A DNA stretch of 37,853 bases from Fibrobacter sp. (lineage in GTDB: Bacteria > Fibrobacterota > Fibrobacteria > Fibrobacterales > Fibrobacteraceae): positions 1 to 37,853 of the forward strand of contig JAKSIF010000026.1 of NCBI GenBank assembly GCA_024398965.1, given 5' to 3'. The notes under the pieces were generated by a model. That model was not told where the DNA came from and did not search any database. It was given only the letters and a program-made list of their open reading frames with translations. Positions 2,849-34,650 of this stretch are shown here, piece after piece. The first letter of the stretch is position 1. Every line of letters starts with the position of its first letter. The position numbers and the translations under genes are program-made.

Positions 2849-5008
2849 ATGATTGACTGCTTGAAAAAGTTTGCTTCCTTGAAGGTGACTTGCGCTTTGC
2901 TGGTTGCTTTCTTGTTGCTGACATTTTGGGGCGTTCTCGGCCAGGCTGCTGCGGGTAACGAAGGGGCTGCCCTTGCAACAAATCGCTTTTTTGGAAGTTA
3001 TTTCCTGTGGGTTCTTGGGGTGATTCCGGTGCCCGCTTTTAAATCATTGGCTGCAGTGAGTGCGCTTCAGTTGATTGCCTCCATGATGTACCGTATGCCG
3101 CGGATTTTCTCTCGGGACGACTCGGGCAAACTTGTTCTCTCGGGTTGGCGTAACCTGGGGCTTTATGGAATGCATATTGCCCTGCTGGTTCTTTTGGTGG
3201 GTAGCCTTGTGGGCTCCGAATTTCGTCAGGAGTTTAACGGTTTCCGTGCAGTTCCTGCCGTAGGCGAATTGGTGGACGTCAAGACTCCGCAAAAGATTAC
3301 CTACTACACCGTCAATGACGGCTTGAATACAAGTGCGGTGAAAGTGGGAGAGGGCTATCCCTACTTTACGTTCTACAAAGGTCAGGTGGATATGATGGGA
3401 GTGAAGGTGGACCTTTATACGGCTACCTACGACCCTTTCCATTTTGTGCCGTACGTGTTCATGATTTTGTTCTTGCTCAGTGCGGCGTTTCATTATGCTG
3501 TTAAGGTGCGGGCTGGGTCTGCTGCAAATAAAAAGAACTTTATAAGTGTGATTGCCTTGGTTTTTGCAGGCCTGTTTTTTACGCCTTCCGCAAATGCAAC
3601 AACCCTTTTTCCTCCTGCTATTCCAGATTCTATTGCGAAAAAACTGCCTTGGAATCCTGAAGACCCTGTAATGGTCAATGGGGTTGTGCGCCCCTTTGAC
3701 TCCTTTGCTCGCGGGATTGTCAACGATCTTTATGGCAAGGTTACTTTTAAGTACTGCGTAGAGGATGACTGCGATGATGAAGATGCGGTTTATATGGTTG
3801 GACTTATTTATGTGCGTGCCTCTGAAGAAAAAGAACTTTTTAAGGTTCTTCGCAGCGATGTGTTGCAGGCGCTTCATCTGCCTGAAAATAAACGTTATGT
3901 CAGCTACAATGATTTGAATGCCTCCCGTTCTCAACTGGAAATTTATGCAAGCCGCAACGATGACCATCCGGCTACAGCCGAAATGAAACGTTTGCTTGCC
4001 AATGTGCAACTTTATGAATCCATCGAACGAGGTGATTTTAGAAAGGCTACGGCAACTCCGGAACAGACAAAAAAATTTAAGGCAGAAGTTTTCTACAACC
4101 ACGCCAACTTTGCCTTGATCGCGTTCATCCTAGCTTTCATCGGTTGTGTCTTGGCTGCAGTCAATTCCCTTTTCAAAAAGCGCGCCCTTGATGTGGCGGC
4201 GAACTCCATGGCTGCAGCGACCGCAGCAACGTTGTCCATAGCATTTGCCCTGCGCCTTTACATTACAGGCCGCCCGCCTCTTTCCAGTTTGTATGAGATT
4301 GTGCTGTTGATTGCCTTACTGTTAGAATGCTTTGAATTTGGAGCCTTTATCTTCTGCAAGAAACGCACGTTCTCCCTCATCATTCCAGTAACGGCAATGG
4401 CCACAGTCCTGTTGTTCTTTGCCAAGTTCATTTTGGAACCTGGGGATTTGTTCCAGCCCATTCCTGCGGTGTTGAATTCCTCGGTGTTTCTGACACTACA
4501 TGTGTTTACAATCGCCCTGGGATTTGCTAGCGTTATTTTGTCTGGAATCGTTGCCCATGTGGCCTTGTTCCGCGAAACCCGCTGCGCCAAGAATTCGGAA
4601 CAACTTCAGAATATAAACAAACTCCTTTTCGGTACCCTTGTTTTTGGTTCTGCCTTTACCATTTTGGGTACGTTGCTTGGGGGCGTCTGGGCGGATTTTG
4701 CCTGGGGGCGTTTCTGGGGCTTTGACCCTAAGGAATGCGGGGCTCTTTTCGTTTGCCTTTGGACGATGCTTGGGCTACACCTTCGCGGTGGATGCCTCAT
4801 CTCGCCAAGGGGCTTCGCACTGTTCAACTGTTTCAATGTGATTGTCACGTTCCTTTGCTGGTTTGGAATTAACTTGCTGGGAGTCGGGCTTCATAGCTAC
4901 GGCTTCCAAAGCGGAACGGTAATGTGGCTTTTGATTTTTATTCTCGCTGATCTTGGCGTGATTTTTTATTTGAACCATTGTAGACGAAATCTCGGCGTAG
5001 CCGACTAA
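2849..5008 (+). CDS. ccsA: CcsBA-type cytochrome c biogenesis protein (ResB-CcsA fusion)
   Basis: A 719-residue polytopic membrane protein for System II cytochrome c maturation, in which CcsB and CcsA carry haem across the inner membrane and attach it to apocytochromes. The N-terminal third (about 1-225) is ResB/CcsB-like, with membrane segments and a periplasmic stretch. A second hydrophobic segment ending SANA leads into a periplasmic middle region (about 250-410), and residues about 410-719 form the CcsA domain. The haem-handling WWD-type block WADFAWGRFWGFDPKE lies near residue 620, with Phe where the usual second Trp of WGWD stands. Conserved histidines appear in the LHVFTIALGF and GVGLHSYGF segments. 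The fused layout resembles that of Bacteroidota. The start abuts a dispersed repeat and has only a weak ribosome binding site. Confidence 0.88.
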   Translation: MIDCLKKFASLKVTCALLVAFLLLTFWGVLGQAAAGNEGAALATNRFFGSYFLWVLGVIPVPAFKSLAAVSALQLIASMMYRMPRIFSRDDSGKLVLSGWRNLGLYGMHIALLVLLVGSLVGSEFRQEFNGFRAVPAVGELVDVKTPQKITYYTVNDGLNTSAVKVGEGYPYFTFYKGQVDMMGVKVDLYTATYDPFHFVPYVFMILFLLSAAFHYAVKVRAGSAANKKNFISVIALVFAGLFFTPSANATTLFPPAIPDSIAKKLPWNPEDPVMVNGVVRPFDSFARGIVNDLYGKVTFKYCVEDDCDDEDAVYMVGLIYVRASEEKELFKVLRSDVLQALHLPENKRYVSYNDLNASRSQLEIYASRNDDHPATAEMKRLLANVQLYESIERGDFRKATATPEQTKKFKAEVFYNHANFALIAFILAFIGCVLAAVNSLFKKRALDVAANSMAAATAATLSIAFALRLYITGRPPLSSLYEIVLLIALLLECFEFGAFIFCKKRTFSLIIPVTAMATVLLFFAKFILEPGDLFQPIPAVLNSSVFLTLHVFTIALGFASVILSGIVAHVALFRETRCAKNSEQLQNINKLLFGTLVFGSAFTILGTLLGGVWADFAWGRFWGFDPKECGALFVCLWTMLGLHLRGGCLISPRGFALFNCFNVIVTFLCWFGINLLGVGLHSYGFQSGTVMWLLIFILADLGVIFYLNHCRRNLGVAD

Positions 5009-5015
5009 TTTACTC

Positions 5016-5046
5016 TCGTAAATCATAACTCGTACTTCATAATTTT
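5016..5046. repeat. AT-rich dispersed repeat (TCGTAAATCATAACTCGTA type)
   Basis: Alternating CGTAATT/CATAACT-like words follow the ccsBA stop. The same words recur at 14790-14810, 14857-14877, 14911-14932 and 26271-26293, always between genes. No function is evident. Confidence 0.5.
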
Positions 5047-5060
5047 CTATCTTTTCCCCC

Positions 5061-6368
5061 ATGCTTCAATGGGACACCTTGCTTTCTGCTACGCGTTATG
5101 GACATCCTGCCGATCAGGATCCTAACCGCTCTGATTTTCATCGTGATTACGACCGTATTGTTTTTTCTACGGCATTCCGCCGCCTTGGCCGAAAGACCCA
5201 GGTCCATCCGTTTTCTGTAAACGACCACGTTCACAGCCGCCTGACCCACAGTATTGAAGTGAGTAGCGTTGGCCGTAGCCTTGCCATTACGGTTTATCAC
5301 CTGATCAAGAAGTATTTGCCCAAGTATGTGAACGAATACCAGTTCGGCACCATCGTTCAGTCTGCCTGCTTGGCCCATGATATCGGCAATCCTCCCTTCG
5401 GCCACGCCGGCGAGGCTGCCATTCGCGAATGGTTCCGTAAGAATCGCAATTCCGCTCCCATGCAGGATTTAAAACCGGATGAAATTGCGGACTTTGAAAA
5501 CTTTGACGGTAATGCTCAGGGCCATCGAATCCTGAGCAAGCTGGAATACCATTTCCTGGATGGCGGCATGCGTCTGACTTACGCAACCATCGGGGCTATG
5601 ATCAAGTATCCCCAGCTGGCCAAGTTCGGCACACCCACCAGCCTGTTCTCTACAGAAGCTGATCTCTACCGCATGACCGCCTACACCTTGGGCATTCCCG
5701 AGCTGGAAACTGGCAAGTGGGCCCGTCATCCGCTGGTATACTTGATGGAAGCTGCTGACGATATCTGCTACAGCATCCTGGATGTGGAGGATGCCATCGA
5801 ACTTGGTATTCTTTCCTTCGGCGATGTACGTAGCATGTTTAGCTACCTCTGCGGCCCCGATGTGGATATTGACCGCGAGTATCAGGAAAACGGACAGAAC
5901 TTCCGTGACTTCCTCAGTAGCATTCGCGGACTAGCTATCCAGAACCTGATTGATGATGTGGCTATTGCCTTTGTGAATAACTACGAACAGATTATGTCTG
6001 GTGAATCGGTGAAGCATCTTACCGACTTGTCCCGTTCCGAGGTCATGGAAGGTATCCGTATTGCAAAGCGCCTGGGTGTGGAACGCATCTATCCGGACCG
6101 TCGCAAGACCGAACTTGAAGTGGGTAGCTATACCACCTTGAGTACTGTCCTGGATGCATTCATCAACGGTGTGTACGATTTCCGCAAGAATGGTAAGAAT
6201 TCCTATCGCGCCGATCGCATAGTACGTTTGATTGGCCAGGCAAAGATTGGCCAGAGCGTTACTGCCGCCGAAGCCTACCATCAGGTGCTGGACTTTGTCA
6301 GCGGCATGACCGACAACTACGCCACTTATCTGGCTCGTCAGATTGGCGGCCTTGCCATGGGTTACTAG
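5061..6368 (+). CDS. dgt: deoxyguanosinetriphosphate triphosphohydrolase (dGTPase)
   Basis: A 435-residue HD-domain enzyme that splits dGTP (or other dNTPs) into deoxynucleoside and triphosphate, acting in cytoplasmic nucleotide-pool control. Family signatures are FRRLGRKTQVHP (about 39-50), HSRLTHSIEVSS (about 58-69), and the metal-binding HD in CLAHDIGNPPFGH (about 102-114). Length is normal for the shorter dNTPase branch. The ATG at 5061 has no clear Shine-Dalgarno (a run of C precedes it), but the protein starts with the expected family N-terminus. The HAD gene starts 14 bp downstream, so the two may form an operon of nucleotide-handling enzymes. Confidence 0.92.
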   Translation: MLQWDTLLSATRYGHPADQDPNRSDFHRDYDRIVFSTAFRRLGRKTQVHPFSVNDHVHSRLTHSIEVSSVGRSLAITVYHLIKKYLPKYVNEYQFGTIVQSACLAHDIGNPPFGHAGEAAIREWFRKNRNSAPMQDLKPDEIADFENFDGNAQGHRILSKLEYHFLDGGMRLTYATIGAMIKYPQLAKFGTPTSLFSTEADLYRMTAYTLGIPELETGKWARHPLVYLMEAADDICYSILDVEDAIELGILSFGDVRSMFSYLCGPDVDIDREYQENGQNFRDFLSSIRGLAIQNLIDDVAIAFVNNYEQIMSGESVKHLTDLSRSEVMEGIRIAKRLGVERIYPDRRKTELEVGSYTTLSTVLDAFINGVYDFRKNGKNSYRADRIVRLIGQAKIGQSVTAAEAYHQVLDFVSGMTDNYATYLARQIGGLAMGY

Positions 6369-26113: not shown

Positions 26114-26118
26114 TCTAG

Positions 26119-26191
26119 TGGAGCTAAGGAGAGTCGAACTCCTGACCTCCTGCATGCCATGCAGGCGCTCTACCAACTGAGCTATAACCCC
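26119..26191 (-). tRNA. tRNA-Ala (anticodon GGC)
   Basis: The minus strand folds into a 73-base cloverleaf: acceptor GGGGTTA with TAGCTCC, D-arm GCTCAGTTGGTAGAGC, anticodon stem CCTGC/GCAGG with loop ATGGCAT giving anticodon GGC, and T-arm with GTTCGACTC. The G3-U70 pair that identifies alanine tRNAs is present, and the discriminator is A. The 3' CCA is not encoded, so it must be added enzymatically. A terminator follows directly. Confidence 0.95.
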
Positions 26192-27164: not shown

Positions 27165-27521
27165 ATGGCTTATCAAATTGAATGCGTTGTTCAAGAAGTT
27201 GGTTTGGCGGTTAATGGCTGTGTTTCTGCTCTTAAAATCAAGGGAACCGAAGGCTACCTGTTAAAACAGGGTGGCGAAGAGTATAATGTGTTTTGCCCCA
27301 TTTCGGGTGATGAAAAAATTGAGAGCGGAGAACAGACTGTTTTATTGAACGCGAAGGATGTCTTGAATTTTAAGACGGCAATTTGTTACGGAATTGCGCA
27401 AATGCTCATTCAGGCGAAAACTTCTAACACGAAAGTGCGCTTGAAATTTGATGAAAAAGATGATTCTAAAATCGTTTGTGAAAAATTGAATCTTTCTTTG
27501 ACCTCCATCGTCTTAATCTAG
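27165..27521 (+). CDS. unrecognised small protein, first gene of SIR2-like operon
   Basis: A 118-residue soluble protein that I do not recognise. It has no signal peptide or membrane segment. Its start, YQIECVVQEV, and overall layout match the C-terminal half of the protein at 29254, which has YSIECVVKTM: both have a GDEK or GDKT turn, an LLNAKD or MLDSKT strand and a KVRLKFDE or KIEMTFRG strand near the end. So the two genes share a domain of about 110 residues. It begins an operon behind a TTGACA box and ends 4 bp before the SIR2-like gene, which suggests joint function. Confidence 0.65.
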   Translation: MAYQIECVVQEVGLAVNGCVSALKIKGTEGYLLKQGGEEYNVFCPISGDEKIESGEQTVLLNAKDVLNFKTAICYGIAQMLIQAKTSNTKVRLKFDEKDDSKIVCEKLNLSLTSIVLI

Positions 27522-27525
27522 TCTT

Positions 27526-29241
27526 ATGAGTCAGCCTTCTACATGGTCTGAGACCCTCGTGTTTATTGGTGCCGGAGCCACGGCCTTGCTTGGCATGCCC
27601 CAAACCAGTGAACAAACAAAATTTTTTCGAGAATTATCAAAATTCGGTGGTCGTAAGAGCCTGGCGAATTTCACGAATGATTTTGCGCAAAACGACCTGA
27701 ATCGTCTTGAAGATTTTCTTATTCTGCTTGGTGACGACAAAACTGACGAAGATTGCTGGCTAGAAATTACAGATGGTGAACTGGCCGCAGCACGCAGGGC
27801 CTATGGTTCCGCAGGTGTAACTCCATCAGACGAAATCCTGAAAAAACGGATTCTGGAGCTTCGCCATTCCTATGACTGGCTGGCCCTTAAGCAGATTATT
27901 TCCATTTGCCCTCATGACAAGGAAAACGATAACCTGATTCGTGATGTCTATACCCTGCTCGATAAAAAGATGAATGCCAAGCAGGGAATCAAGGTTCGTG
28001 CAGCGATCGGCGATAAGGATGAAATTGTCATAGACTACAGCAGACTCAAGGGTGCGTACGCCTGCGTTATCTGCTTTACGGTAATCCTTTTTGCAAAATC
28101 CTGGAAAAACTTGGCAGAAGGCAAAAATGCAGAGATGTTTTCTAGCTACAAAAGGTTTGCAGAAACATTCGCTCGTCTGATGCAAAAGGAAAGCTTTGCC
28201 TTTGCCGAAAAATACCCGGACCTGACAAGCCGCGAATTTTACCAGTTCAGCACCTCTTTTGTCTCCTTCAATTTCGAAACCGTATTCATGTGGCTCCTGT
28301 TCAATGCGAACCGCGAAGTGAACCATTTTGATAAGTATTTGAAGACGGCGCAAAAGGTGGAGCAGTGGCTGGATTTTGGATTCCAGACCAAGAGCCGTAA
28401 AATTTCAAGTAAACCAGAAGATCGAAAGCCCGAAAAGTTTTCCTATTCCTATGACGAAGTTGTTGCCTTTAGGCAGAATGAATGCAAGGCTTCCGGGTCT
28501 CCTGTTGGGCGTATCGGCAAGTTCTTTTTTGCCCACGGCAGTTCCAACTGGCGTGAATGCCCCGCCTGTGGGCGTATGATGTATTACCTTGGCGACGAAT
28601 GGGGCTATGGCTCAAAGCATTTGAACCCGCCTTTGCCTGTGCCGTTATTTGAAAACGATAATTTTAACCGCACAGAAAACGAAAAACGCTGGTGTAACGA
28701 ATCCTTGCAATCGGATGCCCTGGAGTGTGTTTCCTGTGGGGCAAAGACATTCGCCAGTAATTCGCCCATGATTATGCAGACCATGATCAAGGGAACGCCG
28801 ACATCGTTCCTTGAAGAAGTCCAGCGCGAAGTTCGCGTAGGACTTGAAAAATGCAGGCATGTGGTTTTGCTGGGGTACTCCTTGCCTGTGGATGATGTTG
28901 TGTGGATACAGACTTTTACTGAGGCTATTCGTTGCCGAAAAAATACCGAAGAACAGGCGTACTGCAGCGTGGTTGTGGGGTATAAAGGTGAAAAACGATG
29001 GATGTATGGCGAAGAACTGAAACGTTATGCAGGAGCCCATCGTTACGAAAAGGAAGCCGATGCGTATGGGGCTAAGGCTATAGAAAGTGCAATATCCATT
29101 TTCGGTGCCGAGAATGTACGTGCGTACTGCGGTGGAATCCCTCAGGTCTGGGGTGACGCAACCGAAAATGAATTGAAGGAAATTCTCTATCCACAGAGCT
29201 GGAATGCGAATATGTGGAAGGGAACGAGATTGGAAAAATAA
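27526..29241 (+). CDS. SIR2-like NAD-binding protein with sirtuin zinc ribbon
   Basis: A 571-residue soluble protein. The N-terminus has the Rossmann-type LVFIGAGATALLGMP (residues 11-25), as in SIR2 domains. FVSFNFETVF (about 247-256) may be the NAD-site Asn block. HGSSNWRECPACG (about 337-349) matches the sirtuin catalytic-His region running into the first zinc pair, Cys345 and Cys348; the second pair is Cys401 and Cys404. VVLLGYSLPVDD (about 450-461) is typical of SIR2-like defence effectors. An insert of about 200 residues separates the two halves. SIR2 domains deacetylate proteins or, in several phage-defence systems, destroy NAD+. Which applies here is not shown. Flanked by two genes sharing a domain. 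Confidence 0.75.
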   Translation: MSQPSTWSETLVFIGAGATALLGMPQTSEQTKFFRELSKFGGRKSLANFTNDFAQNDLNRLEDFLILLGDDKTDEDCWLEITDGELAAARRAYGSAGVTPSDEILKKRILELRHSYDWLALKQIISICPHDKENDNLIRDVYTLLDKKMNAKQGIKVRAAIGDKDEIVIDYSRLKGAYACVICFTVILFAKSWKNLAEGKNAEMFSSYKRFAETFARLMQKESFAFAEKYPDLTSREFYQFSTSFVSFNFETVFMWLLFNANREVNHFDKYLKTAQKVEQWLDFGFQTKSRKISSKPEDRKPEKFSYSYDEVVAFRQNECKASGSPVGRIGKFFFAHGSSNWRECPACGRMMYYLGDEWGYGSKHLNPPLPVPLFENDNFNRTENEKRWCNESLQSDALECVSCGAKTFASNSPMIMQTMIKGTPTSFLEEVQREVRVGLEKCRHVVLLGYSLPVDDVVWIQTFTEAIRCRKNTEEQAYCSVVVGYKGEKRWMYGEELKRYAGAHRYEKEADAYGAKAIESAISIFGAENVRAYCGGIPQVWGDATENELKEILYPQSWNANMWKGTRLEK

Positions 29242-29253
29242 AAGGTGAAAGTC

Positions 29254-29970
29254 ATGACAACAACCAAAGAAAAGCATTCCTTCAATTTTGTTGGAGGAGA
29301 TAAACTTAGTAGTATGGGGGCGACATGGTTTGTCCTGTACCATTACTATAAAACATCAGATTCTTCCTATGATAAGTGGAAGGAAAAAAAAGAAAACAGT
29401 GCAAAGATTCGACTGAACACTTATGAAAAAGAAGTTGGAAAAAGACTCTCTGATTACGGAAAAGAGAGCGAGTGTGCAATGGAATTTGGAGATTGTAGCA
29501 TTGTAGAATATTGGCTTGAAAAAATACAAGAAATGGATGACTGTAATTTGGACAAGTCTAATTTCAATGTAACCCCAAAGGAAGTGAAAAGGCTTTGTTC
29601 TTTAATGCTTTCGCAAATGCGATATAGTATTGAATGTGTCGTGAAAACGATGTCTATGGGGCTAAAGTTTGAGTTTGAAATTCAGGGCTGTGAAAATTAT
29701 TTGCATAGAATCACTGAGAAAAATAATGAACGTTGTTTGAATTACTTTGTGAAAGGTGACAAAACATCAGCTCTTATGCTTGATTCAAAAACGAAATTCG
29801 TTCTAGATCAAGAATCTCCACTAGTCAAAATGATCGTTGCTGGTTTTGAAAGTAACCGAAAGATTGAAATGACCTTTAGAGGTGCCGCTTTCAAAAATGT
29901 ATTGTATAGCAAATTGTTCGGTGAATTTGTGAATGTAGATGAACTCGTTTGCGAAGTTAAACTGTATTAA
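29254..29970 (+). CDS. unrecognised two-part protein sharing a domain with the gene at 27165
   Basis: A roughly 238-residue protein. The first about 120 residues are Lys- and Glu-rich and mostly helical, with no match I recognise. The rest (from MRYSIECVVKTM, about residue 123) aligns by eye with the whole 118-residue product of 27165. I prefer the ATG at 29254, with AAAGGTG 7 bases upstream; an in-frame GTG at 29245 is possible. It starts 12 bp after the SIR2-like gene and 42 bp before the FISUMP gene, so it sits in a plus-strand series. Codon use is more AT-rich than in core genes, hinting at acquisition. Function unknown. Confidence 0.65.
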   Translation: MTTTKEKHSFNFVGGDKLSSMGATWFVLYHYYKTSDSSYDKWKEKKENSAKIRLNTYEKEVGKRLSDYGKESECAMEFGDCSIVEYWLEKIQEMDDCNLDKSNFNVTPKEVKRLCSLMLSQMRYSIECVVKTMSMGLKFEFEIQGCENYLHRITEKNNERCLNYFVKGDKTSALMLDSKTKFVLDQESPLVKMIVAGFESNRKIEMTFRGAAFKNVLYSKLFGEFVNVDELVCEVKLY

Positions 29971-30012: not shown

Positions 30013-31101
30013 ATGATTATGGGAAAAATTCTCGTGACCGTAGGTTTGTTGGTTGTATGTTCTATGGCGGGAACCCTTAAAGATTCCCGTGATGGTCAAA
30101 CCTACAAGACCGTGCAGATTGGCAACCAGGTCTGGATGGCCGAAAATTTGAATTATAAGACCAGTGGGAGCGCGTGCTATGACAACGAGGAAAGCAATTG
30201 CGAAAAGTACGGGCGCCTGTACACCTGGGAATCTGCGAAAAAGGCGTGCCCTGCAGGATGGCACTTGCCTAGCAAGGAGGAGTTTGAAAGACTCCTGTAT
30301 ATTGTGGGAGGAGCCTCTGATGAAATAACGTCAATAAATCTACGCGCACGCAGTTGGAAATTTGGGTCGGAAATGTTCGGCTTTTCGGCTCTCCCTGCTG
30401 GCAGCTACAACAGCCGCTACAAGGAGTTCGGCCTTTTGGGCTTCAGCACCTACATTTGGTCTTCTACGGAGGAAAATAGCGACTACGCCTACAGCCTGTA
30501 CGTCGAAGCCTCCTTCGCGGACGTCGGCGGCAAAAACATGGACGGCGGAGGCTCTGTTCGTTGTCTCCAGGACTCAGAGGCGCAGCCACCGAGCGGAACT
30601 TTAAAGGATTCCCGTGATGGTCAAACCTACAAGACCATGCAAATCTTTGGCCGGGTTTGGATGGCTGAGAATCTGAATTATAAGACCAGTGAGAGCGAGT
30701 GCTATGACAACAAGGAAAGCAATTGCAAAAAGTATGGGCGCCTGTACACCTGGGAATCTGCGAAAAAGGCGTGCCCTGCAGGATGGCGCTTGCCTAGCCA
30801 CTGGGAGTTTAAAATACTCCGGGATAATGCGGGAGGAGCCTCTGATGAAATAAAGTCAATAAATCTACGCGCACGCAGTTGGAGAAATGGGGCGGACAAG
30901 TTCGGCTTTTCGGCTCTCCCTGCTGGCTACTACGACAGCAACGACAAGAAGTTCGACAATTTGGGCAACGTCGCCATCTTTTGGTCTTCTACTACGGAGG
31001 TCGATTTCGGCGCCTCCCTCCTGGGCATCGACGTCGGCCGCCCGTTCCAAGGCTTCAGCGACAGGGACCGCGGACACTCTGTTCGTTGTCTCCAGGACTA
31101 A
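30013..31101 (+). CDS. secreted protein with two tandem FISUMP (Fib_succ_major) domains
   Basis: A 362-residue exported protein. A short signal peptide (cleavage near SMA-GT, residue 19) precedes two FISUMP domains (about 20-187 and 195-362) that are nearly identical in their first halves (GTLKDSRDGQTYKT, WMAENLNYKTS, YGRLYTWESAKKACPAGW). FISUMP is a C-type-lectin-like fold specific to Fibrobacter and some other groups, and a known target fold of diversity-generating retroelements. The last about 55 residues of each domain differ strongly between constant blocks GFSALPAG, WSST and SVRCLQD. The gene lies directly upstream of the Avd-like gene. Start at the ATG at 30013 with GGAG upstream. Ligand unknown. 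Confidence 0.88.
   Translation: MIMGKILVTVGLLVVCSMAGTLKDSRDGQTYKTVQIGNQVWMAENLNYKTSGSACYDNEESNCEKYGRLYTWESAKKACPAGWHLPSKEEFERLLYIVGGASDEITSINLRARSWKFGSEMFGFSALPAGSYNSRYKEFGLLGFSTYIWSSTEENSDYAYSLYVEASFADVGGKNMDGGGSVRCLQDSEAQPPSGTLKDSRDGQTYKTMQIFGRVWMAENLNYKTSESECYDNKESNCKKYGRLYTWESAKKACPAGWRLPSHWEFKILRDNAGGASDEIKSINLRARSWRNGADKFGFSALPAGYYDSNDKKFDNLGNVAIFWSSTTEVDFGASLLGIDVGRPFQGFSDRDRGHSVRCLQD
30403..30573 (+). other. candidate DGR variable region A (FISUMP domain 1)
   Basis: It lies between the constant CTCCCTGCTGGC (30391-30402) and TCTGTTCGTTGTCTCCAGGA (from 30552). Codons are largely NNC (AGC TAC AAC AGC CGC TAC), as expected if AAC codons of a template were mutated at adenines. No template is visible to prove it. 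Confidence 0.5.
30928..31101 (+). other. candidate DGR variable region B (FISUMP domain 2)
   Basis: Of the 51 codons between 30928 and 31080, 33 end in C, far more than in the constant first half of the same gene. The 27 bases at 31081-31107 spanning the stop codon are identical to 32601-32627 after variable region C, as expected for an initiation-of-homing site. Confidence 0.55.
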
Positions 31102-31111
31102 AGCGATTGCG

Positions 31112-31180
31112 CCCTCTAACTAAGGAAGCGCACTGTGCTATCTTAGCCAAGGCCTAGCGAAGTAAAGCCTTGAAACTATC
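31112..31180 (+). repeat. conserved 3' flank shared by both FISUMP genes (copy 1)
   Basis: From CCCTCTAACTA to CCTTGAAACTATC, this aligns with 32693-32759 downstream of the second FISUMP gene. Each copy holds a CAAGGC...GCCTTG hairpin (31148-31153 with 31167-31172 here) around a shared TAGCGAAG core. Confidence 0.75.
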
Positions 31181-31219
31181 AAGAAGAGCTACGCAGCGAT
31201 GCTGCGAAAGTTCTTCTTG
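31180..31219. other. two-tier hairpin after FISUMP variable region B
   Basis: CAAGAAGA (31180-31187) pairs with TCTTCTTG (31212-31219), and CGCAGC (31192-31197) with GCTGCG (31201-31206) around a GAT loop. There is no T tract, so it is not a normal terminator. It lies between the variable region and the Avd-like gene. Confidence 0.7.
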
Positions 31220-31266
31220 GTGAAAAATTATGGTTATAAATATTGCTTATAGACGAATTTTACACC

Positions 31267-31932
31267 ATGGAATGCAATAATGAGTCAAGTATACACTTGA
31301 TTCGTGACCGCAAGTTTTTCCAGACTTGTGAAAGGTCTGCTTTTCGTTTTGTAAAATTTCTTCGAGAATACAAGGTTCACCATAAGTTCGTCAAGAAAAT
31401 CGGTGCTGATGTCGTGTATCTTGGATTCCCTGATTCCGTTCTTGAAAGCTTGAGGGCTGAGACTCAAGATGCTGGTTACGAGCGGAAAATCATTTCCGAC
31501 GATCAGCATATAGAAATCAGTGGCTTGCCAAAATTAGAATCGTACGATGCCTGGAAAACCGGTATTGTGCGGTATGTGGACAATGTCTCCACGAACGTTT
31601 CAAAGACTTCTTCAATTGAGGAAATAGGCTTTCCCTCGAAAAAACGCTTTGTCATTTATCGTGTGTTTTATGACCTCACATTGTACCTTTGTCGTTTAAC
31701 CAGCAAGTTCCATCGAAATTTTAAGTTCGGCCTGGGTGATAAACTTCGTGAGGATTGTGTCCTTTACTTGACGGATATGCAATGCATCGTCCAATCAAAA
31801 AAGTCCTTTGAAAGGAGTGTGTTTGAAGAGTTTCTCGTGTCTATGCAAATCCGGTTGCGTTTGCTTCTGGATTTAAAGCAGGTCACCGAAAAGCAGTGGT
31901 TTTTTGTAAATCAGACTATAGGTAACCTCTAA
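31267..31932 (+). CDS. avd: MutS-like/Avd fusion: DGR accessory protein
   Basis: A 221-residue protein in two parts. Residues about 125-221 match the Avd four-helix bundle: YDLTLYLCRLTSKFHRNFKF, GLGDKLRED, then a long helix with RLRLLLDLKQVTEKQW and a final IGNL. Avd binds the reverse transcriptase and the template RNA in diversity-generating retroelements. Residues about 1-100 (RDRKFFQTCERSAFRFVKF, KKIGADVVYLGFPDSVLESL, AGYERKI) resemble the MutS-like (MSL) accessory proteins reported with some DGRs; this half is less certain. The start is taken as the ATG at 31267; a TTG at 31243 is in frame and no ribosome binding site is clear. It lies between two FISUMP target genes. No reverse transcriptase gene is in the window. 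Confidence 0.72.
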   Translation: MECNNESSIHLIRDRKFFQTCERSAFRFVKFLREYKVHHKFVKKIGADVVYLGFPDSVLESLRAETQDAGYERKIISDDQHIEISGLPKLESYDAWKTGIVRYVDNVSTNVSKTSSIEEIGFPSKKRFVIYRVFYDLTLYLCRLTSKFHRNFKFGLGDKLREDCVLYLTDMQCIVQSKKSFERSVFEEFLVSMQIRLRLLLDLKQVTEKQWFFVNQTIGNL

Positions 31933-31973
31933 AAATTCGCCTGTGGTAAAATTTATTTAAGGAGTCAATAAAT

Positions 31974-32621
31974 ATGAATATTGAAATTAGTGTGAAAAAA
32001 ATTCTCGTGACCGTAGTCTTGTTGGTTGCATGTTCCATGGCAGGCACCCTTAAGGATTCCCGCAATGGTAAGACATACAAGACCGTAAAGCTCGGTAAAC
32101 AGACTTGGATGGCTGAAAACTTGAATTACAAGACAAAAGGTAGCATGTGCTACGATAACAAGGAAGGCAATTGCAAAGAATATGGTCGCCTGTACACCTG
32201 GGAGGCTACAATAAATGCTTGCCCCAGTGGCTGGCACTTGCCTAGCAAGGAGGAGTTTGATGCTTTTCTAGAGATGGTTAAGTTGCGCACTGAACAAATT
32301 GTGGCCCAGAAGAAATTGAATGCAGAACCGTTGAAAGAAGGCGAAGACAAGTTCTACAATCACTTACGTGTTTCTAGCTGGACAAATGGTTTTGACTCAT
32401 TCGGCTTTTCTGCTCTCCCTGCTGGCGACTACTACAGCAATTTAAAGAGTTTCAACTCTTTGGGCGATAACACCTACTTTTGGTCTTCTACGGAGGACAA
32501 TAGTAACAACGCCTACTTCCTGCGCATCAGCGGCGGCCTCGCGAAAGTCTACCGCAGTGCCGCGGGCGTCCTCGACGGCGGCAAGAATGACGGCTACTCG
32601 GTTCGTTGTCTCCAGGACTAA
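31974..32621 (+). CDS. secreted single-domain FISUMP protein
   Basis: A 215-residue exported protein with a signal peptide (hydrophobic core VTVVLLVACSMA, cleavage near residue 22) and one FISUMP domain: GTLKDSRNGKTYKT, WMAENLNYKTKG, CPSGWHLPSKEEF, FGFSALPAG, FWSSTED and the closing SVRCLQD. It has a longer central insert (about 95-130) than the two domains of the gene at 30013. AAGGAG precedes the ATG at 31974. It follows the Avd-like gene by 41 bp, in the right place for a second retroelement target. Like other FISUMP proteins it probably shows a lectin-like surface outside the cell; the ligand is unknown. Confidence 0.88.
   Translation: MNIEISVKKILVTVVLLVACSMAGTLKDSRNGKTYKTVKLGKQTWMAENLNYKTKGSMCYDNKEGNCKEYGRLYTWEATINACPSGWHLPSKEEFDAFLEMVKLRTEQIVAQKKLNAEPLKEGEDKFYNHLRVSSWTNGFDSFGFSALPAGDYYSNLKSFNSLGDNTYFWSSTEDNSNNAYFLRISGGLAKVYRSAAGVLDGGKNDGYSVRCLQD
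32427..32621 (+). other. candidate DGR variable region C (second FISUMP gene)
   Basis: It has the same borders as regions A and B (CTCCCTGCTGGC before, TTCGTTGTCTCCAGGACTAA at the end). The interior is again rich in NNC codons (TAC TTC CTG CGC ATC AGC) and differs from A and B at most non-constant positions. Confidence 0.55.
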
Positions 32622-32641
32622 AGCGATAGCGAGTGACGCAT

Positions 32642-32659
32642 AGACAAACTTGTTTGTCT
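32642..32659. other. hairpin just downstream of FISUMP variable region C
   Basis: AGACAAAC-TT-GTTTGTCT is a perfect 8-bp inverted repeat (or 7 bp with a 4-base loop), 20 bp after the stop codon. DGR variable regions often have a 7-10 bp hairpin at this place that raises homing efficiency. Confidence 0.65.
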
Positions 32660-32692
32660 GTATGTCCGAGCATGAGCGTAGGCGCCTTGGAA

Positions 32693-32759
32693 CCCTCTAA
32701 CTAGAGGCGCGTAGCGCCACCATAGCCAAGGCTTAGCGAAGCAACGCCTTGAAACAATC
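32693..32759 (+). repeat. conserved 3' flank shared by both FISUMP genes (copy 2)
   Basis: From CCCTCTAACTA to CCTTGAAACAATC, this aligns with 31112-31180. It holds CAAGGC (32727-32732) and GCCTTG (32746-32751), plus an extra GGCGCGTAGCGCC hairpin. Confidence 0.75.
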
Positions 32760-32789
32760 GCCCCAGGGTTCGATTCCCTGGGGCGTTTT
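32759..32789 (+). terminator. strong hairpin with T tail closing the FISUMP cassette
   Basis: A perfect 10-bp stem CGCCCCAGGG / CCCTGGGGCG (32759-32768 with 32776-32785), loop TTCGATT, then TTTTC. The GGTTCGATTCC core imitates a tRNA T-arm, but the rest of a tRNA is absent. Confidence 0.75.
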
Positions 32790-32972
32790 CTATAAGCACA
32801 TGGTCATGTACGGGGGGATGCAAATGATTCCGTCTTTCCTTTTGGAAAACGCCTTCGGATGGATGATGTAGCATTGCCCGATTCGCGTTCCGAATTTCTT
32901 TTTGAAATCAAGTAGAGATGTGGTTGTGTAATTTTTCGAGGACATAACTTCTGCCAATTCGACGCGCACCAT
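32790..32972 (-). pseudogene. C-terminal remnant of a DUF4143 ATPase gene
   Basis: The last about 55 codons (SSKNYTTTSLLDFKKKFG, RIGQCYIIHPKAF, IPPYMTMCL) look like the end of AAA+ ATPases with a DUF4143 C-terminal region, as in the intact gene at 34738, which ends VSLDKFWGKF...LPLYMAGLI. The Walker motifs and everything before this are missing. The Lys of the expected EVKSS nuclease-like motif is Met (EVMSS). Upstream are two repeats 33 bp apart, like those upstream of the intact gene. A deletion that removed most of the gene is the simplest explanation. Confidence 0.6.
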
Positions 32973-33118: not shown

Positions 33119-34117
33119 TCACCCCATCTCCAGGACTTTCGCTCGGTCCTTCACCTGCGCCTTGAACTGCGCTTTTCCCTGCTCGCTTAAATAACTTCGG
33201 TCAATCATTGCGTCCATTTCCATTAGATGGCTGCAAGTTTCTGCAATGAAGCGTTCTGCCCGGATTTCCTTGATGCCGATGCGGCGGGCCAGTTCCATAA
33301 AATCTGGCTTGCCGTAGAATCCGTTGACCTTGAAAAATTCGGTTTCAAAGTCATCCACAAAAAGTTCCAACGCGGTTCGGCCAAGCTCTTGAACGTGCAA
33401 TGATGTGTTCAGCAAATCGTAGGCGGGAGTCAGTTTGTAAACCCCATCCGCATTTGGGGAATAGATGGAAAAATTCTTGACGTGGGCGTCGCCGTTACAG
33501 ACCAGATAGTTGAACAGAATCAGCCTGAAGTATTTTTCCACATCGGTAGGGTAGGTGCTTACATATCGCTTCATCAGGTCGGCAATTTGCTGGTAGCTGA
33601 AATCGTACTTGTAGTTGGAACCATTTTCGCCCGGGGTGAGGCCTGCCACCTGGGCGAAGTCTTCCTGGCAGATCCTGTTGCCGTCGGGTAGAACATCGAA
33701 TCGCTTGGTGATGTAGGCGGGTGTGCCGTCTTTAAGATAAACTAGCGCATTGTCTGCTGCGTCGATCTTGAAAATCTGCCTGGCCATCTGCATGGTCAGG
33801 TGTTCGTTGGCGGGCATGTCTTTTGTGTTGTCGAACAGCCCTTCTACCGCGGGCTTTAAGATGAAGGTGCCGCCATTTTCGGTAGGTTCCAGCCGGCCTT
33901 CGTTCACCATTAGCGAAAACTTGGGCTGCGCGCCAGAAATGGAAATTCTGCGAATGGAACCGTTTTTGGACTTGATTTCGGGTAAGGAAAATTCCAGCGT
34001 GGCGTTAAACTTCTTTATGCCAAAGAGCCGCTTGGCGCAGGCAGGGCAAAAATCCCGCGGTGTCTCCTTGAGACAGCTGTGGCAACGGTTCTGCATCATG
34101 GGGGATGCGCTTGTCAT
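33119..34117 (-). CDS. hipT: HipT-type kinase toxin (HipA-like, lacking N-subdomain 1)
   Basis: A 332-residue HipA-fold Ser/Thr kinase. An N-terminal zinc ribbon (CHSC at 12-15, CPAC at 24-27) precedes the kinase. The Gly-rich loop SISGAQPKFSL carries an SIS pair (Ser59, Ser61), the autophosphorylation pair known from HipT. FILKPA gives the ATP Lys (about 89), NGDAHVKN the catalytic Asp210, and TPAYDLL the metal Asp234. The N-subdomain 1 of HipA is absent and is instead encoded by the upstream gene, as in HipBST systems, where HipT phosphorylates TrpS in E. coli. The start overlaps the hipS stop by 4 bases (ATGA). The target here is unknown. Confidence 0.85.
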   Translation of the reverse strand: MTSASPMMQNRCHSCLKETPRDFCPACAKRLFGIKKFNATLEFSLPEIKSKNGSIRRISISGAQPKFSLMVNEGRLEPTENGGTFILKPAVEGLFDNTKDMPANEHLTMQMARQIFKIDAADNALVYLKDGTPAYITKRFDVLPDGNRICQEDFAQVAGLTPGENGSNYKYDFSYQQIADLMKRYVSTYPTDVEKYFRLILFNYLVCNGDAHVKNFSIYSPNADGVYKLTPAYDLLNTSLHVQELGRTALELFVDDFETEFFKVNGFYGKPDFMELARRIGIKEIRAERFIAETCSHLMEMDAMIDRSYLSEQGKAQFKAQVKDRAKVLEMG

Positions 34118-34434
34118 ACGTCCTCCATCACGGTGATGGCGCCGATGGTTTCCTTTCCTGCAAGTTTCAGTAACAGCCTGTAGGAATCCCTGGGGTCAAT
34201 CTTCAGGGACATACAGAAAAGTTTGCGGTTTTCTCCCTCGGGCAGCAAACCTTCAAAAAATGGGAAAAGTTCCTTGGACTTGTAAGGCTCCTGTCGCTTA
34301 GACAATGTTAATGCAATGGCAGGGCGCCTAGACGCAAGGTAGATTTCATCGTAGGTAAAAATGAACCCGTCCCTAGTCTTGGTCAAGGTTCCGGCCAAGA
34401 AGCCGTTGTAAAACACCGATGCTTGCCTAGCCAT
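34114..34434 (-). CDS. hipS: HipS-type small antitoxin (HipA N-subdomain 1)
   Basis: A 106-residue protein that equals the N-terminal couple_hipA subdomain of HipA: ASVFYNGFLAGTLTK (about 5-19), FTYDEIYL, PAIALTLSKRQEPY (about 38-51), FPFFEGLLPEGENR (about 57-70), and DPRDSYRLLLKLAGKETIGAI near the end. In HipBST modules this separate subunit, HipS, is the antitoxin, while HipB boosts it and binds DNA. It overlaps hipB by 8 bases and hipT by 4 bases, so the three are translated together. A broken hipA is the alternative, but the clean ATGA overlaps and intact motifs argue for the natural three-gene form. Confidence 0.85.
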   Translation of the reverse strand: MARQASVFYNGFLAGTLTKTRDGFIFTYDEIYLASRRPAIALTLSKRQEPYKSKELFPFFEGLLPEGENRKLFCMSLKIDPRDSYRLLLKLAGKETIGAITVMEDV

Positions 34435-34633
34435 TGACGACTCTCTCGGTTAAAGAAAGTTTCAATCCCAGCTGTTCCGCAAGCTTGCAAAGTACCTCGA
34501 TGGACGGGTTTGCGCCGCCGTTTTCGATGGCGTTGATGGTCCGCAGTGAAACTCCGGACATTTCCGAAAGATCCCTTTGGCTTAATCCAAGGGACTCCCG
34601 CCGTCTTTGTAGATTTTCAAAAATTTCATCCAT
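34427..34633 (-). CDS. hipB: HipB-type Xre-family DNA-binding antitoxin
   Basis: A 68-residue single-domain Cro/CI-type helix-turn-helix protein (RRRESLGLSQRDLSEMSGVS, then RTINAIENGGANPSIEVL). It is the autorepressor of the HipBST operon. I chose the ATG at 34633; an in-frame TTG at 34642 lies inside the operator palindrome and is unlikely. No Shine-Dalgarno precedes the ATG. A TTGACA-17-TATTTT promoter and two GCAATATRTTGC palindromes upstream are its probable control region. Confidence 0.88.
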   Translation of the reverse strand: MDEIFENLQRRRESLGLSQRDLSEMSGVSLRTINAIENGGANPSIEVLCKLAEQLGLKLSLTERVVNG

Positions 34634-34638
34634 AAAGT

Positions 34639-34650
34639 GCAATATATTGC
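34639..34650. promoter_or_regulatory. HipB operator palindrome 1
   Basis: GCAATATATTGC is a perfect 12-bp palindrome between the likely transcription start and the hipB start codon, preceded by GT as in operator 2. Confidence 0.65.

Follow-up and report, generated by a model that had tools for sequence, protein, structure and literature searches.

Diversity-generating retroelements (DGRs) are known to leave remnants: in Treponema denticola isolates, target genes bearing a variable repeat (VR) are left over after loss of the reverse transcriptase (RT) and the template repeat (TR) (PMC4891356, covered here in part). Fib_succ_major and DUF1566 domains are known DGR targets in human microbiomes (PMC4159848, in the part covered), and a MutS-like (MSL, PF01624) DGR accessory is on record (PMC10053308, likewise covered in part and citing an earlier survey). 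Here we analysed a stretch of 37,853 nucleotides (hereafter the window), which is contig C26 in a 3.59-Mb draft genome of Fibrobacter type with 151 contigs, and in which two FISUMP genes (Fib_succ_major, a C-type-lectin-like domain) flank a gene for a 229-aa protein that we named MSL-Avd. An earlier note on this DNA had taken the set for a DGR cassette with no RT in sight, either diversified in trans from elsewhere in the genome or left behind by an element that lost its RT and template. We conclude that the locus is very probably a retired DGR cassette, derived from an ancestor with FISUMP target(s), MSL-Avd, TR and RT; the cassette is not demonstrably active.

The anatomy described in the earlier note was recovered: two secreted FISUMP genes, three domains in total, stand either side of the Avd-like gene, with open reading frames (ORFs) and TIGR02145 matches as given in Table 1. 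Its placing of Fib_succ_major among C-type-lectin-like DGR targets agrees with the part of PMC4159848 covered and with the predicted model of the gene 2 product, which would be C-type-lectin-like, both Lcl (8q4e) and the DGR variable protein TaqVP (5vf4) being among its best matches, at moderate strength (Z 7.8 and 7.0, respectively). A sequence search of the same product against solved structures gave no match. The VRs form the ends of the FISUMP domains and thus lie at the 3' end of a C-type-lectin-like domain (likeness moderate, Z 7-8).

Changes within these VRs are concentrated at template adenines. The reference was the TR of Fibrobacter sp. Horse_feces16 (locus L159), the closest relative whose TR is complete. 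For VR1a, over the whole alignment, mismatches affected 41/73 adenines versus 26/132 other bases (p 1.4e-7); the corresponding figures were 44/73 and 29/132 for VR1b (p 5.4e-8), and 33/73 and 25/132 for VR2 (p 7.5e-5). Overall, 45-60% of the template adenines were changed, and about 20% of the other bases. Because a foreign template could mislead, two controls were run, a codon test free of any TR and a comparison with other FISUMP ends. Ahead of the VR, the tandem domains of gene 1 differ from each other at 13/15/11 of 104 (codon positions 1/2/3); within the VR, the counts are 28/25/7 of 58, a pattern that is not what ordinary drift gives. The hypervariable interiors that the earlier note had seen in three FISUMP 3' ends are real, and their constant borders are shared in the repeat comparison. 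Among 19 FISUMP ends of the same genome, third-position change at template AAY codons was 0-32% in ten and 48-82% in nine; the three window VRs belong to the ten VR-type ends, in which C-ending codons are preferred, and the other nine are ordinary FISUMP ends. That the FISUMP genes of the window are DGR targets, as proposed, is strongly supported: we regard their VRs as DGR products because complete relatives with TR, RT and VR exist and because the differences are adenine-directed, with third positions spared and ordinary ends behaving otherwise. Two further FISUMP genes of this genome, at 3640-4371 and 4741-5334 of segment C1:220500-230500 (L106), carry VRs of the window's template type.

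MSL-Avd is made of a MutS-domain-I-like part (residues 1-87) and an Avd-like four-helix bundle (residues 131-229), whose C-tail is lost compared with relatives. Its own match to the Avd profile is weak (NF033474, residues 138-226, E 0.0024; 18 bits, where the cut-off is 80), but the Avd-like C-terminus noted earlier is backed by the family, in which 12/14 members match Avd, 5/14 bAvd and 2/14 MutS_I (best E 0.0061). In the predicted model (mean pLDDT 71), residues 132-229 would match Avd of the BPP-1 DGR ribonucleoprotein (8ub8_C, Z 11.7; 4dwl_D, Z 10.9) and appear as close to S23 proteins (2rld_D, Z 12.4), while residues 1-87 may correspond to domain I of MutS (7ou4, Z 7.3, moderate strength); a sequence search of MSL-Avd against solved structures gave no match. 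Since the four-helix fold is common to the S23/23S-IVP family (2rld, 2gsc), it is not by itself specific to DGRs. The earlier statement that Avd is DGR-specific thus does not hold for the fold alone. In a GTDB scan, an RT lies directly downstream of MSL-Avd in 17/18 loci, the exception being a 46-residue match. These loci belong to Fibrobacter, Fibrimonadaceae, Chitinispirillales and a few Bacteroidota. One could still suppose that a large lectin paralogue family merely varies in the ordinary way, without a DGR and beside an unrelated S23-type protein, given the 98 FISUMP domain matches in this genome and the presence of the four-helix fold in S23/IVP proteins. This account is already disfavoured, and we consider it extremely improbable, because third codon positions are spared where positions 1 and 2 are saturated, ordinary FISUMP ends differ, and MSL-Avd adjoins a DGR RT nearly everywhere else. 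Elsewhere in the family, MSL-Avd is split into two ORFs in L206 (7858-8594) and lacks about 43 residues between its domains in L159 (6523-7146), the RT staying open.

Within the genus, MSL-Avd matches were found in 12/80 genomes, the present one included, and most of them lie beside RVT_1 hits. A script looking for repeats that differ only at A found TR/VR pairs at these loci (in L159, for example, 90 bp with 21 differences at A and none elsewhere). The gene order in relatives is FISUMP, MSL-Avd, TR and RT, with variants, and their RTs carry IGNLTSQ and YVDD, which we take to be DGR-type motifs. In L159 (5102-6478, minus strand) the TR lies in frame inside the RT ORF, which is why Pfam assigns a FISUMP end to residues 23-89 of that ORF. 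A related DGR in L168 (6037-7196) and L239 has an RT spread over two reading frames, which may reflect either an element in decay or an error in the sequence.

A syntenic locus, L160, is found in genome G066, which also holds the complete DGR L161. It has in common with the window the upstream genes (97% and 92% identity) as well as FISUMP and MSL-Avd (80%). In L160, MSL-Avd is followed by half a TR, the 5' part, fused to a FISUMP 3' end, as TR-VR recombination would leave, and no RT was found there. Similarity between the window and L160 ends with the loss of the Avd tail at 31934 and is back at 32716 (L160 7497), after FISUMP gene 2. Relative to L160, dS is 0.50 in the cassette and 0.11-0.20 in the upstream flank, so the cassette has a history of its own. 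This excess, together with two more VR genes followed by the same insert at C1:224-225k, would suit a scenario in which FISUMP and MSL-Avd arrived or were duplicated together as a remote target set that never had an RT of its own. However, L160 keeps half a TR at the corresponding place and MSL-Avd otherwise occurs with RT and TR, so that we hold such an origin to be very unlikely.

No RT was detected in the 3.59-Mb draft, at the locus or elsewhere, either with the RVT_1 profile or with a close DGR RT protein as query, although the RVT_1 search does find such RTs in genomes of the genus; RT remnants, sought in the same two ways, were likewise rejected. The L159 TR, used as a query, matched only FISUMP ends in this genome, and a TR inside the window was rejected, as no AAC-dense stretch is present at the cassette. 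The draft therefore holds neither a DGR-type RT nor an adenine-rich TR near one, and the genome search suggested in the earlier note, for an RT and a matching noncoding repeat, came back empty at this level of assembly. Genome-wide absence is nevertheless doubtful. On contig C94, a FISUMP VR (L111 930-1190) differs from the L161 TR at 28/67 adenines and 0/117 other bases, two small indels apart, and its flanking DNA is 93% identical to L161 of the sister species. C94 breaks off within the ATPase gene, in L161 the neighbour of the RT, and its end lies 1.3 kb from the L161 RT position. The gene just beyond the DGR in L161, presumably trpC (named from its sequence), is not in the present assembly, in which trpE and trpGD are found. 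The simplest reading is that the edge of C94 marks an assembly hole, which would conceal a DGR that was recently active and has another type of template. As C94 ends where the sister species has a complete DGR, and trpC is missing, "no RT in the genome" is an unsafe statement: the claim of a missing RT stands for the locus and for the draft, and is doubtful beyond them.

The fresh VR on C94, the contig end and the missing trpC make an active DGR likely in this genome, and the IMH-like 3' end of the L161 TR resembles those of the window VRs. It could follow that the genes of the window continue to be diversified in trans, by an RT and a matching TR in the unassembled part of the genome, as the earlier note had envisaged. 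We consider this unlikely. The window VRs fit the L161 template worse (for VR2, 28/120 non-adenine mismatches versus 15/110 for the L159 type), so the hidden DGR does not make the window VRs active; moreover, no matching template was found in the draft, the window VRs have drifted apart at non-adenine sites, and their hairpins are displaced.

The drift and the displacement are what a retired cassette would show. As the window's own TR is not in hand, the age of its VRs was judged from their differences with each other: 13-16 of 83 non-adenine sites differ (16-19%). Non-adenine differences between the L159 VRs and their TR are 0/83 for two VRs and 6/83 for one (0-7%), and the L160 VR differs from its own half TR at 0/42. 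The window VRs thus appear to be old. Intact VRs (e.g. in L160, L159, L161 and L162) have a hairpin close by on their 3' side. The target-side hairpins of the window are present, displaced by 14 and 75 bp, and the one after gene 1 is imperfect. In BPP-1, insertions of more than 3 bp in the spacer between VR and hairpin gradually lower target function and homing (PMC3240598); as a counterpoint, natural VR-hairpin distances of 4-34 bp exist. Of the two options of the earlier note, the remains of an element that lost its RT and template is the one that fits, given a locus with neither TR nor RT, the drifted VRs, the displaced hairpins and the half TR of L160.

In the retired cassette, the order of events may have been as follows. 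An intact ancestor would have carried FISUMP target(s), MSL-Avd, TR and RT. Its RT would have made cDNA from the TR RNA, erring at adenines, and this cDNA would have replaced the FISUMP 3' ends, rewriting variable positions of the C-type-lectin-like domain, which may serve in binding surfaces. Later, the Avd tail, TR and RT would have been lost, FISUMP gene 2 now standing at their place, and inserts would have pushed the target-side hairpins away from the VRs, so that homing was probably lost; the FISUMP genes would stay open as frozen variants. Several points weigh against this view. The ORFs of both FISUMP targets and of MSL-Avd are still open, and MSL-Avd is under no visible relaxation (dN/dS 0.22 relative to L160), relaxed selection as a sign of decay being seen in none of the values obtained (0.22, 0.14, 0.18). 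Different templates for the window VRs could mimic age, RT and TR could exist elsewhere because of the hole in the draft, and the comparison covers one genome per species.

Table 1. Features of the FISUMP/MSL-Avd cassette, in window coordinates.
Feature	Positions	Strand	Evidence or remark
FISUMP target gene 1, secreted, two tandem Fib_succ_major domains, 362 aa	30013-31101	+	ORF; TIGR02145 E 1.8e-102; PF09603 E 1.6e-52
VR1a core	30403-30551	+	Between constant borders GCTGGC and CTCTGTTCG
VR1b core	30928-31076	+	Alignment to L159 TR
VR1b constant 3' end, IMH-like	31077-31099	+	Repeat family D3, alignment; nearly identical to 32597-32619
14-bp insert AAAGCGATTGCGCC between VR1b end and hairpin	31100-31113	+	Not present in L160 and L159
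Imperfect hairpin, putative counterpart of the target-side hairpin 3' of intact-DGR VRs	31120-31146	+	Fold of sequence after stop
MSL-Avd accessory gene, 229 aa	31243-31932	+	NF033474, alignment, structure model, RT directly downstream in 17/18 relatives
Junction: relatives go on into Avd C-tail, TR and RT, the window into FISUMP gene 2	31930-31973	.	Sequence comparison
FISUMP target gene 2, secreted, one Fib_succ_major domain, 215 aa	31974-32621	+	ORF; TIGR02145 E 3.3e-52
VR2 core	32427-32596	+	Alignment to L159 TR
75-bp palindrome-bearing insert between VR2 end and hairpin	32620-32694	+	Similar insert (~75 bp) after both C1:224k/225k VRs
Displaced target-side hairpin CTAGAGGCGCGTAGCGCCACCATAG	32701-32725	+	Sequence comparison, fold
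Terminator-like hairpin closing the cassette	32757-32791	+	Fold; 32716-32791 aligns with L160 7497-7570, thus common to G066

Around the cassette, one tRNA-Ala gene lies at 26118-26191, 3.8 kb before it. Integration beside a tRNA was considered and rejected; the hairpin that closes the cassette, whose loop side reads GGTTCGATTCC, is tRNA T-arm-like and is an unconfirmed att candidate. A phage or plasmid origin was also rejected, as tblastn found nothing among 50,697 phage and 72,556 plasmid records; related MSL-Avd genes are present on nine IMG/VR contigs, with RT sequence beside each, none of them close to the window type. Upstream, three genes (27165-29970; 118, 571 and 241 aa) conserved with G066 may form a defence module; none has a Pfam match over the cut-off, and the 571-aa protein has a GAGAT motif like that of SIR2 proteins and a zinc ribbon. 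Downstream (33119-34642, minus strand), genes for a HipA_C protein, a small HipA-N-like protein and an HTH protein follow in a row, resembling a HipBST-like three-gene toxin-antitoxin set.

The FISUMP proteins are a very large and poorly understood Fibrobacter family, which is here tied to targeted hypermutation. The locus offers a testable case of a DGR after loss of its enzyme: the products outlast it, and past activity is recorded within a single genome by VRs that differ in age. This genome has at least ten such VR-type ends, graded in age, and we tentatively suggest that transient Fibrobacter DGRs might seed the FISUMP repertoire, targets being hypermutated, RT and template lost, and the variants kept frozen. 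A practical lesson is that an RT can go unseen in a draft assembly, so that a live system is taken for a lost one.

With respect to known systems, DGR remnants, FISUMP-type targets and MSL accessories are already known. New are the Fibrobacter MSL-Avd/FISUMP family, a relict that has kept its accessory gene, and a genome with graded-age VRs; we found no account of Fibrobacter DGRs of this build in the open literature, most subscription journals lying outside the search. The closest systems are the L159 and L161 DGRs, which share with the window FISUMP targets, the same VR borders, and TR and VR in the FISUMP reading frame, their MSL-Avd proteins being about 80% and 42% identical to that of the window, respectively. 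They have TR and RT, and VRs that are fresh relative to the TR, whereas the window is without both and its VRs have drifted. The BPP-1 phage DGR (Mtd, Avd, bRT) has in common with the window an Avd-like bundle, a C-type-lectin-like target with an adenine-directed VR at its 3' end, and a hairpin after the VR; the window differs by its chromosomal FISUMP target, the MutS-like domain joined to Avd, the missing RT and TR, and the displaced hairpins. The MSL accessory, in the part of PMC10053308 covered, is similarly MutS-domain-I-like and adjoins the RT, but in the window this domain is joined to an Avd-like bundle in one protein. The human-microbiome targets belong to the same domain class; they are metagenomic, and the part of PMC4159848 covered gives neither MSL-Avd nor a Fibrobacter context. 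In the T. denticola leftovers, as in the window, VR-bearing targets outlast a lost core, in another phylum and with another target family; the accessory gene, which is not described for T. denticola in the part of PMC4891356 covered, is kept in the window.

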